The notes under the pieces are model-generated. The model was not told the origin of the DNA, made no database searches, and saw nothing but the letters and a program-made list of their open reading frames with translations. Of a stretch of DNA of 64,000 nucleotides, positions 10,129 through 52,407 are shown piece after piece. Each line of letters opens with the position of its first letter. The stretch's first letter is position 1. Where the stretch lies: contig NZ_JAMSLW010000003.1 of assembly GCF_024643285.1 (NCBI RefSeq), positions 124,001 through 188,000 of the forward strand. The letters are read 5' to 3'. A program made the translations under genes and the position numbers. Source of the DNA: Parapedobacter lycopersici. Lineage in GTDB: Bacteria > Bacteroidota > Bacteroidia > Sphingobacteriales > Sphingobacteriaceae.

Positions 10129-10566
10129 TTAATTGTCAGTATATGGATTATTTCTTTTTATTTCCATAAACAATTCCGGGTTTTCCGACAGGTGAAACCC
10201 AAACTGCTCATAGAGCGAGTGCGCATCCAGCGTAGCCAAAAGCACCCTTCTTAACCCTTTTATCCATTCCAGGTCCATGATGTACTGCATGAGTGCCTTG
10301 GACAGCCCTTTTTTCCGGTACTCCTGCCGGATGTAGACATCGGCTAAGTAAGCGAAGGTAACATAGTCTGTGATCAGCCGGGCAAACCCTACCTGCACAT
10401 CACCGTCGAATACGCCCACGCAAAAAGAATTTTTTAATGAGGTTTCCACCGTTTCCACTGGAATGCCTTTTGCCCAGTAACTCTCCCGACTTAAAAAGTC
10501 GTGGATGGCCGCAATATCCATATTTGCTAATCCTGTTTTGAGTTGATACGTGCTCATAAAATTCAT
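10129..10566 (-). CDS. GNAT family N-acetyltransferase
   Basis: This 145-residue single-domain protein has the acetyl-CoA binding signature DVYIRQEYRKKGLSKALMQYI (about residues 94-114) and the C-terminal LYEQFGFHLSENP motif of the GNAT fold. The substrate is unknown. The true start may be MSTYQLKTG at residue 4. It lies just outside the prophage, between the tmRNA terminator and a decayed gene, so it belongs to the host. No good promoter is seen in the 139 bases before it. Confidence 0.8.
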   Translation of the reverse strand: MNFMSTYQLKTGLANMDIAAIHDFLSRESYWAKGIPVETVETSLKNSFCVGVFDGDVQVGFARLITDYVTFAYLADVYIRQEYRKKGLSKALMQYIMDLEWIKGLRRVLLATLDAHSLYEQFGFHLSENPELFMEIKRNNPYTDN

Positions 10567-10705
10567 TTTAGTACATCGCCCTTTTTTGTCGGTAGCGCTT
10601 CACAACGGTAGGTTGCCTCCGTCCGCTTCAGCACATAGCGCAAAGTAACGCAGAAACAAAATAGGGTTACCGATACAGTTTCTATGCTTTTACGGGTATA
10701 CAGCC

Positions 10706-10735
10706 GAAAAACAAAGCCCGGCGGTGGCCGGGCTT
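10706..10735 (-). terminator. Original tmRNA terminator, displaced by the prophage
   Basis: Minus-strand arms AAGCCCGGC and GCCGGGCTT (9 bp, 4-base loop) are followed by TGTTTTT. It lies 10 bases beyond the left copy of the tmRNA 3' end, where a tmRNA terminator is expected. In the lysogen it is about 41 kb from the tmRNA body. Confidence 0.85.
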
Positions 10736-10745
10736 CGTTGGTGCT

Positions 10746-10769
10746 GTGGAGTCGGAGGGATTCGAACCC
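10746..10769 (-). repeat. attachment core, left end (duplicated tmRNA 3' end)
   Basis: The 24 bases are identical to 52041-52064 and correspond to the T-stem and acceptor region of tmRNA (core begins GTGGAGTCGG and ends TTCGAACCC on the plus strand). The flanks differ immediately on both sides. Confidence 0.95.
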
Positions 10770-10819
10770 GTCCATTTATTTTTAATATGCCGCATGGTCA
10801 GTTTTTCGGCGTTTTTCAT
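10770..10819 (-). pseudogene. Displaced 5' end of the integrase gene
   Basis: Read on the minus strand from ATG 10819, the codons give MKNAEKLTMRHIKNKW and then run without a stop through the att core. If the ends are joined at the core, as in the excised phage, this frame continues exactly into the integrase frame (GSNPSDSTFKQ). A second in-frame ATG is at 10795. A TAG closes the frame five codons upstream of 10819. Thus the natural start of int in the phage circle is probably here, and integration separates it from the body at 52040 and below. The remaining bases to 10910 show no other feature. Confidence 0.7.
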
Positions 10820-10910
10820 GCTTAAACCTAACTAATTTTTATCGAAACAGTCAGCTGGTCGGTCAGTGTTTAAATACATAATGAAATGTAGTGGTGCTTT
10901 ATTATAAAAG

Positions 10911-11423
10911 CTAATCCTCCGCCTTTTGGTCTTTTTTCTTTTGAAATATAAAGGCACTGGCCAATGTCGCGGCAGGAACTATAATTGCTGCAAATCCCAA
11001 TAAATCATTTCCGTTTATCGCTAAATAAATTCCCCCGGTAATAAGCAATACACAGAGAATGAAGCCTAATATTTGTCCTGTTGATGATTGGTTTAATCCC
11101 CGCCTAACTATTTCTCGATGGTGGTCGTGACGAAAGGTTTGCTCTTTTTCCGCCATTCTCATGATCCTCTCTGCGCCATCTGGTATGATTTCTGAGTATT
11201 CTCGCAGGGTTTCTGCGTCCGGTAATGGTCCAGAGTGGGATTTGTAGCTTACAATAGTGGCTGTTGCTCTGATTATTGCCTGCTTCTTATTAGGGCTAAG
11301 GTCGGTAAATATGCTAGGATCTTGCTTCTTCAGAATCTTCTCTGCTTTGGATAATTCTCCTGAAGCGAATTTTGACGGGACATTTTTATTTCCGTCTTCA
11401 TTAGGCTGAAGTTTTTCAGACAT
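10911..11423 (-). CDS. DUF2335 membrane protein
   Basis: This 170-residue protein matches the DUF2335 type: a soluble N-terminal part, the conserved block GPLPDAETLREYSEIIPDGAERIMRMAEKEQ (about residues 65-95), a following HRxxH-like basic helix, and two C-terminal transmembrane segments (about 116-135 and 140-160) ending in a lysine-rich tail. The family function is unknown to me. It is the leftmost prophage gene, 3 bases after a small gene on the same strand. Its place between repressor and attachment site suggests expression in the lysogen, perhaps in superinfection exclusion or another host-altering role; that is inference. Confidence 0.75.
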   Translation of the reverse strand: MSEKLQPNEDGNKNVPSKFASGELSKAEKILKKQDPSIFTDLSPNKKQAIIRATATIVSYKSHSGPLPDAETLREYSEIIPDGAERIMRMAEKEQTFRHDHHREIVRRGLNQSSTGQILGFILCVLLITGGIYLAINGNDLLGFAAIIVPAATLASAFIFQKKKDQKAED

Positions 11424-11426
11424 ATC

Positions 11427-11651
11427 TTATAAGGCCTCTTCTTCTATTGCTTTATCTAAAGCATTATTGAAATCACTTCCAATTGAGCTCCAGTCCTTGG
11501 CCACTGAATCTTCATCATCTGTGTACAATGTTTCCCTAACAGAGTCATGCAAAACTGGGTTTACTACACCAAATAGTGAGGCTATACCAAATAAAATATT
11601 CTCCTTTGATTTTAACTTGATGGTGCAATAGTTGCCATTATCGCGCTTCAT
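11427..11651 (-). CDS. Small protein paired with DUF2335 gene
   Basis: A 74-residue acidic protein beginning MKRDNGNYCTIKLKSKENILFG, ending in IEEEAL. It has one weakly hydrophobic stretch (residues 20-35) but no clear transmembrane segment. It ends 3 bases before the DUF2335 gene, so the two are probably one operon. A TATATTTG -7 element lies 66 bases upstream. I do not recognise a family. Confidence 0.6.
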   Translation of the reverse strand: MKRDNGNYCTIKLKSKENILFGIASLFGVVNPVLHDSVRETLYTDDEDSVAKDWSSIGSDFNNALDKAIEEEAL

Positions 11652-13201: not shown

Positions 13202-13873
13202 TTATAGATGGTCAATCCTAGTCTTCCCCTTAATAATAAACATTGAAATTATTGATTCTTTACGGATAATAGTATCACCTCTGAAATTGGGATTCGACGC
13301 CCTCAAGACAATACAGCCTTCGTCAGACTCACAGGGATGAACAGTTTTAACGGTCCTTAAGTTGTTCTCTGAGGCATCAGTAACGATAAGGTACGCCTCG
13401 CCCCATAAGATGGTATTTCTATTTTGAACCTCCTTTACTGCTACTATTTCTCCGCCCGCGTATTTAGGGTACATGCTGTCTCCATAGATTCTAAAATAAG
13501 CCGTACAATCGTTGAACGGCTTAAAATCTATATAAAACGTTGGCGACTCTTGAATGTCGCTAAAACTCTCAACAATACTTCCTGTTACATCCATGTCGAA
13601 AAAAGGCACATGATCGCCGCTGAGTTGGATTTCATCGGATTTAAGCTCAAAGATTTCGCCTATTCCTTCTTCGAGCCAATCTATGTTGACCTTATATGCT
13701 TTTCTTAATTTTAAAATTATCTCAGGTGTTATATTTCTAGAGCCGCTTTCTACTTGTGAAATCTGACTTTGCTTCAAATCAGCGTTAACAGCAAAATCTT
13801 GCTGCTTCATTTTTAGCAATTCTCGAAGTTTTTTTACCCGCCAACTAACATTATCGTCCTGATATACAGACAT
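13202..13873 (-). CDS. Phage repressor: helix-turn-helix plus S24 peptidase-like domain
   Basis: This 223-residue protein has an N-terminal XRE-type HTH (residues 10-65; LRELLKMKQQDFAVNADLKQSQISQVESG) and a C-terminal S24/LexA-like domain with the serine site YGDSMYP (about residue 131) and a candidate lysine in RTVKTVHP. This is the cI-type layout in which RecA-stimulated autocleavage allows SOS induction; a clear Ala-Gly cleavage site is not obvious to me, and VTGS near residue 96 is a possible site. It is divergent from the early operon, with a perfect palindrome in between. It should maintain lysogeny. Confidence 0.88.
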   Translation of the reverse strand: MSVYQDDNVSWRVKKLRELLKMKQQDFAVNADLKQSQISQVESGSRNITPEIILKLRKAYKVNIDWLEEGIGEIFELKSDEIQLSGDHVPFFDMDVTGSIVESFSDIQESPTFYIDFKPFNDCTAYFRIYGDSMYPKYAGGEIVAVKEVQNRNTILWGEAYLIVTDASENNLRTVKTVHPCESDEGCIVLRASNPNFRGDTIIRKESIISMFIIKGKTRIDHL

Positions 13874-48553: not shown

Positions 48554-48707
48554 ACTTAATTGTTGCGATCACTAATACCGTTAATGAAAACAATGCTACC
48601 GCCTCAATCGGAAGAAACACTATTAACCAATTATGGTAAACTAAACCAAAAATCTTTACCGCTATTAACGCGGCCTGAATAATCAATATGACGTATAATA
48701 ATTTCAT
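48531..48707 (-). CDS. Small membrane protein (58 aa) after terminase
   Basis: From ATG 48707 (TAATG overlap with the terminase stop) the protein has two transmembrane helices (about 2-22 and 28-50) and a basic C-terminus. Function unknown. Confidence 0.55.
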   Translation of the reverse strand: MKLLYVILIIQAALIAVKIFGLVYHNWLIVFLPIEAVALFSLTVLVIATIKYARKRSN

Positions 48708-49924
48708 TAGTAACTGAATGATGCTTTGACTTTTCTTTGAACCGTAACCCCCGTAACGAAATACCCTAACGACTCGTTTATGTGGTCGTATCCGGTTGTT
48801 TTGTCTGGTTCTCCGTTGGCGTTGTAGGCTTGGTTTTCCAAAGCCTCGGTAAGCGTAGGGCATCGGCTAGTGTTTATGAATAATGTTCCGTTCATGAACG
48901 CTGAATTAACCGCATTAACCCGGTCGCGCACAAATGGGTTCTTTGCTCCAACGCGCAATTTAAACCCGTGCTGCTTCAATATGTCGTGGTCAGACTTCCC
49001 AGATGTCTTGCGTGAGCCCCCGGCCGCGTCGGGATAAACCACTATCTGATTGTTAGGGTACCGTTCCCGGATGATGCCACACATCTCAAAAGTATCGTAT
49101 GCTTTCACAACCTCGTCTACTACATGATTGGTGCCCGCCTGCGATACGATGATAGTGGCGTGCATATTCGTTACGTTGAAGTCCATACCGATATGAAGCA
49201 CATCCCGGTCGTCGGCTTCTCGATCCGTGTGATTTTCAAACCGGTTGAATGAGCGGTAAACAGTACCGGAAGTTAGGTTAACGAATTTACCATCAAGATA
49301 CGCATCCAGCTGCTCGGGTGAATACACATCTTGCAACGTCTTCATGTACTCGCTTGGAAGTGTAGTGTTATCTTTTGTTTTCCCGTTTATGATTACCCGA
49401 TCCGGTGATTTATCCTTTACGAAAAACCGGTATGCCCATTTAAATCCTTCCGGCGTGCCAACAACATCTGTTTTATTAATATCGCCATTCGGTAGCTTCA
49501 ACCGGTTACGGGCGATAATCTTTGCAAATACGTCCGTCATCTTATCCGTTGGCAGGATGTCTGTCTCGTCAATAAGCGAATACCCAACCTCATACCCCAC
49601 GATTGATTCAGGGTTATCCATGCTTCGAAGATAAATCATTCCGAACGGCGTGGTAATGTCCTTGTCGGTCCGGTTGATGGTGTACTGAATGCCGAACCTT
49701 GTTAATTGCTCAGCAAATTTCGGGAAAGCAATATCTTTGATCAGTCCGTAAGTGGGTAAATAGTAAGCGACTGGTATTTGATTGTATTCTATTTTTTTTA
49801 AGCAGGTTTTAAGCACACCAGCGAATGACTTTCCAGATCCGTACCCACCGATCAGGCCGGTGTGTTTGGCTTCAGAAAACAGAAAATCTTCCTGGTGTTT
49901 GAATACCTCAACCTGCGTTGTCAT
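48707..49924 (-). CDS. Terminase large subunit
   Basis: A 405-residue packaging motor. Walker A is GGYGSGKSF (about residues 26-34), Walker B is YSLIDETD (about 112-119), and the nuclease domain has HIGMDFNVTN (about 244) and VVYPDAAGG (about 297) plus a later acidic residue. Together they pump and cut DNA during packaging. It overlaps the small subunit gene by ATGA. Confidence 0.93.
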   Translation of the reverse strand: MTTQVEVFKHQEDFLFSEAKHTGLIGGYGSGKSFAGVLKTCLKKIEYNQIPVAYYLPTYGLIKDIAFPKFAEQLTRFGIQYTINRTDKDITTPFGMIYLRSMDNPESIVGYEVGYSLIDETDILPTDKMTDVFAKIIARNRLKLPNGDINKTDVVGTPEGFKWAYRFFVKDKSPDRVIINGKTKDNTTLPSEYMKTLQDVYSPEQLDAYLDGKFVNLTSGTVYRSFNRFENHTDREADDRDVLHIGMDFNVTNMHATIIVSQAGTNHVVDEVVKAYDTFEMCGIIRERYPNNQIVVYPDAAGGSRKTSGKSDHDILKQHGFKLRVGAKNPFVRDRVNAVNSAFMNGTLFINTSRCPTLTEALENQAYNANGEPDKTTGYDHINESLGYFVTGVTVQRKVKASFSY

Positions 49925-50343
49925 TTCTTTCTTATTATTTCAACCTTAATTCCGTCCCCGACATTGGTTTGCTCTAACTTGTCTGTTAGTCCATTCAGCC
50001 GCTGTGTGATCGATGGATTGTAAATACCGGCCATCCCACCCTCAATCTGATCTGATCTGATTTCGGTGCGTATGCGTGAACAGATAGTCAAAAATTCTTC
50101 GTATGCGCCGCCTGTGTTTGCAAAATAATTTTGCAAGCCAATTGGCATATCAGGATTATACGCAACGAAGCTCTCAAACCCTTCCATAGTCAGGGCGCGC
50201 GGTTTCTGTCTCATAACACGGTCAGCATCCTTTCCTACGTAGTCTTCGATAAGTATAGGATTGTTCTTGGCCCATTCTTTGTATTCTTCGAATAGGGACC
50301 AAAGTATTTCCGGGGATTTGATAAGAAGCGGTCTGCCAGCCAT
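49921..50343 (-). CDS. Terminase small subunit
   Basis: A 140-residue DNA-binding protein beginning MAGRPLLIKSPEILWSLFEEYKEWAKNN, with LTMEGFESFVAYN and a C-terminal LTDKLEQTNVGDG. It selects the packaging site. First gene of the late operon; only a partial -7-like TATATTGA is visible upstream, so late transcription may need a phage activator. Confidence 0.82.
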   Translation of the reverse strand: MAGRPLLIKSPEILWSLFEEYKEWAKNNPILIEDYVGKDADRVMRQKPRALTMEGFESFVAYNPDMPIGLQNYFANTGGAYEEFLTICSRIRTEIRSDQIEGGMAGIYNPSITQRLNGLTDKLEQTNVGDGIKVEIIRKK

Positions 50344-50429: not shown

Positions 50430-50795
50430 ATGAAAAGAGACATGGATCTTATTAGAAGCATCTTATTGGATGCTGAAGAGAATGCCGTCGATGAAACCGA
50501 CTTCTACATGCCAGAAATACCTGAATACTCAGAAGACCAAATAAGTTATCATAATGGATTATTATATGATTCCGGCCTGATTAATGCGTATCGAACAGCG
50601 AATAAGACAAACGGAGTAAGGTATTATGTTAGGCGCCTTACCTGGCAGGGCCATGAGTTTCTGGATTCCGCAAGAAATGAAAACGTTTGGAATAAGGCTA
50701 AAGAGACGGCTAAGAGTAAGGGTCTCGATCTTGGGCTCGATGTCATGAAAGAGTTACTTGTCTCAATTACAAGATCAATGCTGTTTGGAAGTTAA
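50430..50795 (+). CDS. DUF2513-family protein
   Basis: A 121-residue protein with MKRDMDLIRSILLDAEEN, HNGLLYDSGLI and RLTWQGHEFLDSARNENVWNKAKE, the standard DUF2513 layout. The fold suggests a winged-helix-like domain, but the function is not known. It has its own consensus promoter and runs opposite to integrase and the late operon, overlapping the end of int by 4 bases. It looks like an independently expressed accessory gene of the lysogen. Confidence 0.8.
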   Translation: MKRDMDLIRSILLDAEENAVDETDFYMPEIPEYSEDQISYHNGLLYDSGLINAYRTANKTNGVRYYVRRLTWQGHEFLDSARNENVWNKAKETAKSKGLDLGLDVMKELLVSITRSMLFGS

Positions 50796-52072
50796 AACTT
50801 CCTGCCCTTATTAAACTCGTGGCCTTGTGTATTAATGCCTAAATCCCGCAAGTAAATCATTGTGGTCGCTAAATCTCTATGACGCATTAGCTTCATAATT
50901 TTGTACAGGTCTTCGCCGTCTTCGCCCAGGTGAACGGCACGGGTATGCTTATAGCAATAAATACCGTCCCGGATGGATAGACTAAGTTCGCTTTTGTATT
51001 TACGAAACTTTCGAGCAAAGAAGTCTTCACCAACGGTGTAGGGGGCACCAATTACGAACTTCTTGATGGACAGGGATCGCTTGTCTTCGAGTTTCCCGAA
51101 TACATAGTGATCAGCAGGCATCTTATCAATTCCCAGTTCATATAATAATTCCAAGAATTCGGGATAAATGGGTATAAATTCCGTTCTCCTGTTCTTAGCA
51201 GTTCCTGAATCGATCTTTAACGTTTTCGTTTTGAAGTTAAAATCACCAGCTTTTATAAATCTTGCCTCAGCTTCATTTCGTAATGTCGCATAGTAGACAA
51301 ACGAACAGAAATAATAAAGTAGGTGATCCCCATTTTCGAGCATAAGCTCCTTGAGCCGTTTAAACTCGTAGTCATTGAACGCTTTGTTCCCTGGACGGTC
51401 AACTCGCTTTCTTTTTAACGATTTGGTTGGAACCCTGGGAACGATGTCATCAAAGTTCTCGTGGTAGTAATTGAAAAAGGTTGTAATGTCGTTTAGGTAG
51501 TGGTTGTAGGTCTTGCCGCTCCAGTTTCGCTCTGATTTATGTGACTCAAGAAAATTCGTAACGATTGTCTTGGTTATCTGCGACAACGGTAGCGATCCGT
51601 AGTGGTTTTTGATAAGCCATGTCTTAAACAGGTTAAGTTCGGTCTCATACTTCTTCTTCGTCCGGGGCCGGACATCAAGTTTATTCAGGTATTCGTGGAT
51701 TAAAAATGATACCGGTCTACCGGCGTCAACGATCTCTGTTTCCTGCTCATCGAATGGCGACCAACCTTCTTTGAGAAGTTCCTTTATTGCGACAACCAGG
51801 TCACGTCCATACGATCGCTTAGCTGTCTTAGTATCATAATCAGAAAAACCCTTGAAAAACTTGAACCGGACGAATGCGCCTGTTTGCGGATGACGATACT
51901 TGAACCAAACAAACCAATCCCCGGTAGGGGATGGTGGTTCGTAAAGTTTTGGCCATTTCCATTTTGTTCTCACCTGACTGTTTTCGTCTGCGTTTTGGTC
52001 AGTTTGGTTTTGTAACTTATTAAAAATAAGCTGCTTAAAAGTGGAGTCGGAGGGATTCGAACCCTCGTCCAA
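50792..52072 (-). CDS. int: Tyrosine integrase
   Basis: A 426-residue recombinase if started at TTG 52072. The arm/core-binding part spans about residues 50-200. The catalytic domain has an Arg in TLRNEAEARF, the HTR box in YKHTRAVHL, a His in LMRHRD and the nucleophile Tyr in TTMIYLRDLG. No ATG start exists in the prophage frame: the first residues (DEGSNPSDST) are encoded by tmRNA and the att core, with TTG 52072 or GTG 51970 as the only good starts. On joining the ends the frame opens into an ATG at 10819 or 10795. It acts at the tmRNA 3' end. Confidence 0.9.
   Translation of the reverse strand: MDEGSNPSDSTFKQLIFNKLQNQTDQNADENSQVRTKWKWPKLYEPPSPTGDWFVWFKYRHPQTGAFVRFKFFKGFSDYDTKTAKRSYGRDLVVAIKELLKEGWSPFDEQETEIVDAGRPVSFLIHEYLNKLDVRPRTKKKYETELNLFKTWLIKNHYGSLPLSQITKTIVTNFLESHKSERNWSGKTYNHYLNDITTFFNYYHENFDDIVPRVPTKSLKRKRVDRPGNKAFNDYEFKRLKELMLENGDHLLYYFCSFVYYATLRNEAEARFIKAGDFNFKTKTLKIDSGTAKNRRTEFIPIYPEFLELLYELGIDKMPADHYVFGKLEDKRSLSIKKFVIGAPYTVGEDFFARKFRKYKSELSLSIRDGIYCYKHTRAVHLGEDGEDLYKIMKLMRHRDLATTMIYLRDLGINTQGHEFNKGRKF
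52041..52064 (-). repeat. attachment core, right end (in tmRNA)
   Basis: The 24 bases identical to 10746-10769. On this side the core belongs to the intact tmRNA gene, so tmRNA is preserved by the integration. Confidence 0.95.
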
Positions 52073-52407
52073 ACATGGTACAGTGTACGCTTTCTACATG
52101 CTTAGCTTCCGTTTGATTGTCGGGAAAGGGAAGGCCGGATGCTTGCCTGTACCGTTTTCCTTAGTTGCTGTTTCTCATCGGCCCGTCGCAACGCCAGACC
52201 AACCAGCTCCGTGGTTCGATGCCCCGGTTGCCTACGCTACGGAACCAAGCGCGGGCGGGACAAAAGCTAAACTAATTCTGAATTAGGCAGCTAAGGCGTA
52301 GTTATTTTCGCCATTTAAAAGTGTGAAAGTTAGGATTAAAGCGCCATACTCACAACGCGCTGCATGCTTACATAACTGGCTCCATCCTGTCAATTCCGGT
52401 CGACCCC
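52042..52407 (-). ncRNA. ssrA: tmRNA
   Basis: The 5' end GGGGTCG pairs with the 3' CGACTCC and the T arm is GAGGG-TTCGAAT-CCCTC. The messenger part at 52312-52283 encodes GENNYALAA then TAA, a tag typical of Bacteroidota. It rescues stalled ribosomes. CCA is not encoded. The prophage sits just past the 3' end, leaving the mature RNA intact. Confidence 0.95.

Follow-up and report, generated by a model that had tools for sequence, protein, structure and literature searches.

Where does an integrase gene begin when the phage attachment site lies within its reading frame? The question is raised by a prophage of Parapedobacter lycopersici, contained in a 64,000-nucleotide stretch of contig NZ_JAMSLW010000003.1 (positions 124,001 to 188,000 of the forward strand), hereafter the window. 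The prophage (10746-52064) is bounded by two copies of a 24-bp core, contains terminase and packaging genes (48707-50343) and resides in a tmRNA gene. The window contains this core, GTGGAGTCGGAGGGATTCGAACCC, at two positions only, 10746 and 52041. The proximal copy (52041-52064, minus strand) forms the 3' end of the tmRNA gene (ssrA, 52041-52407, minus strand, tag GENNYALAA), as detected by ARAGORN, and the distal copy (10746-10769, minus strand) is an exact repeat of it. Directly downstream of the tmRNA gene and on the same strand lies the phage-side part of a tyrosine integrase frame (50792-52040), comprising int and a right arm (51974-52040) that is open in the int frame from the core to an internal start. 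The integrase matched the Pfam family Phage_integrase (PF00589) at residues 254-409, with 28.8 bits against a cutoff of 27.1. Beside the distal core, an inverted repeat followed by a T-run was observed (10710-10739, minus strand, arms 10710-10722 and 10727-10739), which is probably the native tmRNA terminator, moved 41 kb from its gene by the prophage. The region 10500-11500 of the window gave no Rfam match.

The integrase frame across attP in the window

The initial annotation of this DNA held that attP lies inside the reading frame of int and that integration parts int from its upstream start codon. Joining of the prophage ends in silico bore this out. The minus-strand ATG at 10819 opens MKNAEKLTMRHIKNKW, which enters the core in the frame of int as had been described, and no stop codon follows until that of int. 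The joined product of 440 aa reads MKNAEKLTMRHIKNKW-TGSNPSDST-FKQLIFNKL... and receives from the left arm (10770-10819, minus strand) the ATG, 15 further codons and 2 nt, which continue the int frame in the circular phage; a second possible left-arm ATG is located at 10795. In the prophage the first 16 codons (10770-10819) and the remainder (50792-52040) are 41 kb apart, int being split into an N-terminal and a C-terminal part, and ATG 10819 is left at the far prophage end. The frame of int then enters the tmRNA gene and extends up to TTG 52072 (426 aa), a TAG being the eighth codon above this TTG. Both the position of the TAG and the additional 14 or so residues of the fused protein (440 versus 426 aa) agree with the annotation.

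The fused frame at computed attP sites of related elements

Of 400 genomes searched within the same order, 77 contained matches. A pattern search for second cores in 12 genomes located them for ten tmRNA elements, including that of the window; G051 and G279 had no second core, and the two cores of G369 were on different contigs. Among 14 further elements, for which 19 to 80 kb of sequence downstream of int was covered, ten had distal cores (15-28 bp), and G034, G362, G047 and G364 had no usable one. The sample does not include the stretches of G155 (second element), G237 and G302, and for G301, with two candidate distal cores, one was counted. The resulting 20 attP sites represent the top of the similarity list, not a random sample, and group into 9 clusters at 45% identity and 5 at 35%. 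Across the 9 clusters the integrases, from Bacteroidota prophages and islands, target tmRNA, tRNA-Ser, tRNA-Ala, tRNA-Leu and tRNA-His genes.

In 17 of the 20 elements the int frame can be read without a stop from a left-arm ATG across the core and the right arm, compared with 1/40 for the other two frames. When GTG and TTG were also allowed, the int frame was open through both arms in 19/20 elements against 3/40 control frames; the comparison with related prophages suggested in the annotation thus came out in favor of a retained fused frame. For the left arm alone, ATG-opened int frames numbered 18/20 (control frames 3/40), the expectation from dinucleotide shuffling (400 each, 150 nt) being 3.2/20; the associated P of about 3e-13 assumes independent elements, and those analyzed here fall into clusters and are not independent. 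The left-arm start codon (ATG, else GTG/TTG) is situated 12 to 41 codons before the core, and left arms without ATG occur in the clade of the window in G081 (GTG) and G002 (TTG). All three frames of the core are used (SNPS, RIPPAP, FESL), each with a left arm in matching phase. An offset beside the core of G048 gives this element another phase than its sister elements have, and its left arm follows suit. One element, G301, contains a stop in the right arm, which speaks against the fused frame being used.

Chance opening of the fused frame is rejected on the basis of the control frames and the shuffles, not of the window alone. There, the shuffle probability of an ATG-opened left arm in the int frame is only 0.22, hence the case rests on the relatives. 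The layout with attP inside int is real and common to several integrase clusters, and is therefore older than this phage.

Uncut attP sites in phage genomes and viral contigs

The loci of 9 of the 18 Riemerella records found were examined. In all nine phage genomes an Int ORF of 438 aa starts at an ATG 24 nt ahead of TCCCTCTCTCTCCGC and runs through this motif, so that the fused frame, which the annotation proposed to look for in related phages, is indeed present uncut. Over their first 120 nt the nine loci fall into three different versions. Eight of the nine records are annotated, and seven of these begin Int at the left-arm ATG; an Int annotated to start well inside, which had been named as evidence against the proposal, was encountered in RAP44 only, with an inner TTG. 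The motif TCCCTCTCTCTCCGC is part of a 19-bp repeat reported to flank a RAP44-like island. According to the accessible sections of that report, this repeat, TCCCTCTCTCTCCGCAAAA, adjoins a tRNA gene, the island undergoes spontaneous excision and circularization, and a plasmid with the RAP44-like int and attP integrated and showed no excision (PMC9745183). Given this reported excision, the Int of the lysogen is active there and not simply switched off.

Six loci were obtained from viral contigs. Phage sequence on both sides of the core was found in L065 only; L033-L035 and L064 begin at a contig edge, and L066 is a weak, partial match. In L065 the frame is open across a core that appears tRNA-like, the same 22-mer occurring in 48/99 genomes of the class. 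The only start codon is a TTG about 9 codons before the core, which counts against a left-arm start at ATG. Two small genes (L065, 9048-9876) directly precede core and int on the same strand and have no Pfam match at E 0.01.

The phage collection yielded no free phage of the clade of the window (27.6% identity at best, among the best 20 of 40 matches), and a plasmid search for this clade returned three weak records only. Further viral scans gave one contig cut at a prophage end and were otherwise blank, and a class-wide genome search added one distant relative (G607). Searches of the phage collection with other integrases retrieved mainly the same Riemerella and Porphyromonas records; the integrase record of Polaribacter phage Leef_1 is short. 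Inspection by eye of a stretch before int revealed no RNA-gene-like core in a Porphyromonas phage record and in a record of a gut phage, one of each. A Riemerella-type integrase is also present in OQ791282.1, deposited as Shigella phage Henu10. Since coordinates and match figures are identical to those of Riemerella phage PT15, this record seems to be mislabelled or mixed.

Conservation of the left-arm codons

Poor conservation of the left-arm codons had likewise been listed as an observation that would weaken the proposal. In the clade of the window this is partly what is found: the left-arm peptides are unlike one another, but the frame is kept. For the tRNA-Ala core, 49 loci were collected, of which 22 are tRNA genes and 27 are not. 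Nineteen of these 27 have a left arm that an ATG opens in the int frame; it comprises exactly 23 codons in 16, 22 in two and 26, counted from the first ATG, in L200. Three conserved groups of left-arm peptides were distinguished (MKNQKPLSEHQKRSLSNAI-, MRKVKPLSEYQKGIYGEIL- and MTDKKPLLEHQKQRLELA-), which have the motif K-P-L-x-E-x-Q-K in common. Pairwise pN/pS was 0.54 (6 sequences, after one of other length was dropped), 0.20 (6) and 0.34 (4), two of the 19 left arms being ungrouped. These values point to the tRNA-Ala left arms being coding, albeit in small numbers. An MGA-KK- peptide recurs in the left arms of G247, G273 and G369.

The remaining loci are of several kinds. L169 and L192 are tRNA remnants, and both left arm and int are absent from L175, L191 and L199. 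In L194 and L202 the sequence ahead of core and int corresponds to no tRNA and to no known left arm, and the frame does not stay open. L190 (G059) has a tRNA-Ala-type left arm immediately ahead of core and int; a shift of one base puts this arm out of frame, and a stop interrupts the int match. On account of L190, L194 and L202, we have slightly less confidence in the reading of attP as part of the int coding sequence. The side-by-side arrangement of left arm, core and int in the chromosome at L190 is that expected of a tandem array or of unintegrated DNA. A single region on contig C1 of G301 contains three tRNA-Ala-type cores, at 178132, 234911 and 244756 (L155, L167 and L177). The left-arm codons are intact at two of these cores, and the arrangement is suggestive of tandem or nested elements.

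The start of Int in the lysogen

An internal GTG had been placed at 51970; the in-frame GTG is in fact at 51973-51971 (minus strand). It is the probable start codon of the Int produced in the lysogen, which would comprise 393 aa. In the close clade, including the window, the codon at this position is GTG in seven loci and TTG in two, thus a start codon in 9/9, and distant relatives often have an in-frame ATG near the same position (seen, not counted). Owing to this conservation the prophage can probably still make a shorter Int, and the start used in the lysogen need not lie in the tmRNA gene. Consequently, of the earlier claim that integration swaps the N-terminus of Int for tmRNA sequence, the loss of the ATG stands, and the start within tmRNA is not required.

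To follow the frame at the proximal prophage ends, 51 loci were given, of which 50 were matched and 10 had no RNA gene nearby, leaving 40 usable. Through the 3' end of the RNA gene the int frame is open in 37/40 loci, and the other frames in 26/80. The exceptions are L010 (truncated int), L021 (the G301 element with the right-arm stop) and L029. In the truncated element G051/L010 the frame stops before the GTG, which counts against the use of the upstream frame.

Hairpins in the right arm

The initial 78 nt downstream of the RNA gene contain a predicted hairpin of -14 kcal/mol or lower in 35/40 loci and in 0/160 mononucleotide shuffles. Hairpins of -12 kcal/mol or better numbered 36, with a U-run in 16 and none in 20 by the test used. 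They fall within the fused frame and mostly upstream of the presumed internal start codon, which in L012 and L015, as judged by eye, is itself covered by the best hairpin. The right arm of the window itself has no significant hairpin (z -0.9). The hairpin is therefore not supported as a feature of the window and belongs to other loci, and its lack here counts against an attenuator as a general requirement. A plain role of the right-arm hairpin would be to substitute for the RNA-gene terminator displaced by the prophage. Its position also suggests a putative attenuator that is lifted by translation from the left arm.

Terminator-like hairpins immediately after the restored tRNA or tmRNA end, read in the int frame, were noted in L009, L017, L023, L025, L026, L027, L032, L074, L135, L136, L138, L139 and L143. 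The hairpin of L025 reads KQPISGCFA in this frame.

Genes and motifs flanking the arms

In the circular phage, genes on the strand of int precede the left arm. For the window these are a CI/LexA-like repressor gene (13202-13873, minus strand, HTH_3 and Peptidase_S24), which is the first of the leftward genes 5' of int, several small genes, and a gene for a DUF2335 membrane protein (10911-11423, minus strand, PF10097), which is the last gene 5' of the left arm and reads toward int. This gene order would fit the possible co-expression of repressor and Int on the circle that the annotation put forward. The repressor-like ORF is 2.4 kb away from the core, attP thus not being inside the repressor gene. 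The gene adjoining the left arm in several relatives appears, by eye, to encode a short HTH regulator with a coiled-coil end; G089 and G301 have other neighboring genes at this place. The left arms (300 nt) were scanned for the motif pair TTG-N19-23-TAnnTTTG, which was found in 0/20, a result of little power given that only 0.1 was expected by shuffling. TAnnTTTG alone occurred 4 times, with 1.9 expected. As judged from the left arms without the motif pair, in a test of low power, int is probably read from upstream in the circle.

Both arms contain GTCAG/CTGAC motifs. In the left arm of the window these are located at 10797, 10850 and 10862 (10797-10866), a density of 3 in 131 nt compared with a window mean of 0.30 per 200 nt, and may be arm-type binding sites; in the right arm they are found at 51974 and 51998 (51974-52002). 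CTGAC-type repeats are present in both arms of the window (10770-10900 and 51960-52040) and in the arms of G366, G081, G281, G048 and G002. They are probably recombinase arm sites, with Int or Xis as candidate binders.

A model for Int synthesis and its alternatives

Taken on the sequence comparisons, we consider it likely that the 5' coding part of int contains attP, with a long Int encoded by the circle and a short Int by the prophage. In the joined, circular form int is a single ORF, running from ATG 10819 in the left arm via the tmRNA-derived core and the right arm into the recombinase (440 aa). From the mRNA of the genes 5' of the left arm, the circle would make the long Int, and synthesis of this form on the circle is likely. 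Integration recombines inside the ORF and leaves the first 16 codons 41 kb away. In the prophage, int would be positioned behind the tmRNA gene, without the left-arm start codon or the upstream operon, and read-through RNA would be translated from GTG 51973 into a shorter Int, probably at a lower level. Form and amount of Int would hence be tied to the circular state, high in establishment and lower or altered once the phage is integrated. As the part left behind keeps the recognised domains and a start codon of its own, excision would stay possible in the proposed model.

More tentatively, the integration state may be read by translation itself. In this view, many integrase genes of Bacteroidota that target tRNA or tmRNA genes would have attP together with a terminator-like hairpin in their 5' coding part. 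Ribosomes starting in the left arm would cross core and hairpin, and int would be made; in the chromosome the RNA in front of int would be an untranslated tRNA or tmRNA, the hairpin would fold and int would be turned down. If true, bacteria would have a self-disrupting integrase of a reversible kind, with one stretch of DNA acting at once as attachment site, end of the host RNA, terminator and coding sequence. A related reading assigns the upstream frame to the passage of ribosomes and not to the peptide: the right-arm hairpin would stop tRNA or tmRNA transcripts in the lysogen, and translation of the left arm on the circle would prevent its folding. We regard this as possible but doubtful. 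It would account for the frequency of strong hairpins (35/40 loci versus 0/160 shuffles), for their position inside the fused frame and mostly before the likely internal start, and for L010, in which another frame crosses the end of the RNA gene and, by eye, ends in a TGA overlapping the GTG. However, no significant hairpin is present in the right arm of the window (z -0.9), a U-run is missing by the test used from 20 of the 36 hairpins at or below -12 kcal/mol, and the best hairpins of L012 and L015 extend across the presumed internal start. In addition, the hairpins could be recombinase sites or plain terminators, and the peptide conservation in the tRNA-Ala elements suggests that the residues matter too.

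Three further explanations were considered. Int might start at GTG 51973 in both states, the upstream frame being a leftover or an unimportant leader. In line with this are the start codon at that position in 9/9 loci, the poor conservation of the left-arm peptide in the clade of the window, the lack of an ATG in L065 and the frames broken upstream of the internal start in G051, G301 and G059. A leftover would however hardly be kept in 19/20 elements against 3/40 control frames, with the phase matched in all three core frames, nor be held at exactly 23 codons in 16 of 19 tRNA-Ala arms with pN/pS below 1, and we consider this explanation unlikely. A start of the lysogen Int at TTG 52072 within the tmRNA gene, with tmRNA-encoded residues as N-terminus, is very improbable. 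The frame is open to this TTG, but the conserved internal GTG/TTG lies 33 codons downstream and disfavors it. Moreover, mature tmRNA is processed at its 3' end, and this would cut the TTG off from int. Least credible is that the open frame reflects chance, or a side effect of DNA constraints on the arm sites together with stop-poor T-arm sequence. The core is stop-free in all three readings seen, the arms carry repeated CTGAC motifs and the shuffle probability for the window alone is 0.22, all of which would fit; the control frames of the same arms are nevertheless rarely open with a start codon (3/40), and the phases match across all core frames. The embedding of attP in the coding part of int thus remains our preferred reading.

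Comparison with known systems

The nearest described systems are archaeal, namely the SSV-type integrases and the attP-spanning genes of pleolipoviruses. Passages of a 2021 review describe SSV-type (type I, 'suicidal') tyrosine integrases of archaea, such as those of SSV1, pTN3 and pT26-2, and state that self-disrupting integrases are exclusively archaeal (PMC8371274). Going by these passages, an att site inside the int gene and a gene split by integration are shared with the elements studied here. The likeness considered is one of gene layout, SSV being archaeal and the present elements belonging to Bacteroidota. As to the inactivity of the separated parts on their own, which characterizes the SSV type, the part remaining in the prophage retains its domains and a start codon, and a RAP44-like island is reported to excise. 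In contrast to the SSV type, the part cut off here measures about 12-41 codons and lies upstream of the recognised domains, the prophage keeps the whole catalytic part and a conserved start codon, and the target is a tmRNA gene, or in the relatives a tRNA gene. In the pleolipovirus SNJ2, the accessible text of two reports describes orf26 as a coding sequence that spans attP, being intact in the circular genome alone and divided upon integration (PMC7911831; PMC13107129). Judged from that text, it resembles the present case in a coding sequence completed by circularization, which also joins operons; there, however, the split gene is a separate one downstream of int, whereas here it is int itself.

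In mycobacteriophages such as BPs, integration-dependent immunity is based on an attP within the repressor gene, the 3' end of which is cut off. Here too, attP lies inside a reading frame and integration alters the protein made, but the gene is int and the 5' end is cut. On the circle of ICEclc, the joined ends place intB13, by way of Pcirc, behind another upstream region. The circle thus gives int a different upstream region than the chromosome, as in the present elements, but in ICEclc a promoter is swapped and the protein is unchanged, while here the Int protein would change. Pcirc is described as an outward promoter in the available portion of the source (PMC9286271).

The literature searched, which left out most subscription papers so that an earlier report is possible, yielded no description of an attP inside a bacterial int frame. 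Occurrence of the same layout in 9 Bacteroidota integrase clusters suggests a common solution, not an oddity. It offers phages a simple means of making Int synthesis depend on the circular state, and start codons assigned to Int in prophages may not be correct for the phage. The elements could also serve as a test bed for how an element that cuts its own integrase gene gets excised again.

The same features can be recognized in phage RAP44 and the RAP44-like 50K island, with a tyrosine integrase at a tRNA gene and the core of the 19-bp repeat inside the int ORF. The accessible sections of the island paper make no mention of the core being inside the ORF, and the int primer used there begins at the internal TTG (PMC9745183). 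For another island of Riemerella, the 10K island, the 53-bp att repeat given in the accessible part of the report ends in a hairpin-like sequence followed by TTTT (PMC6764341), and its duplicated core seems to carry a terminator.
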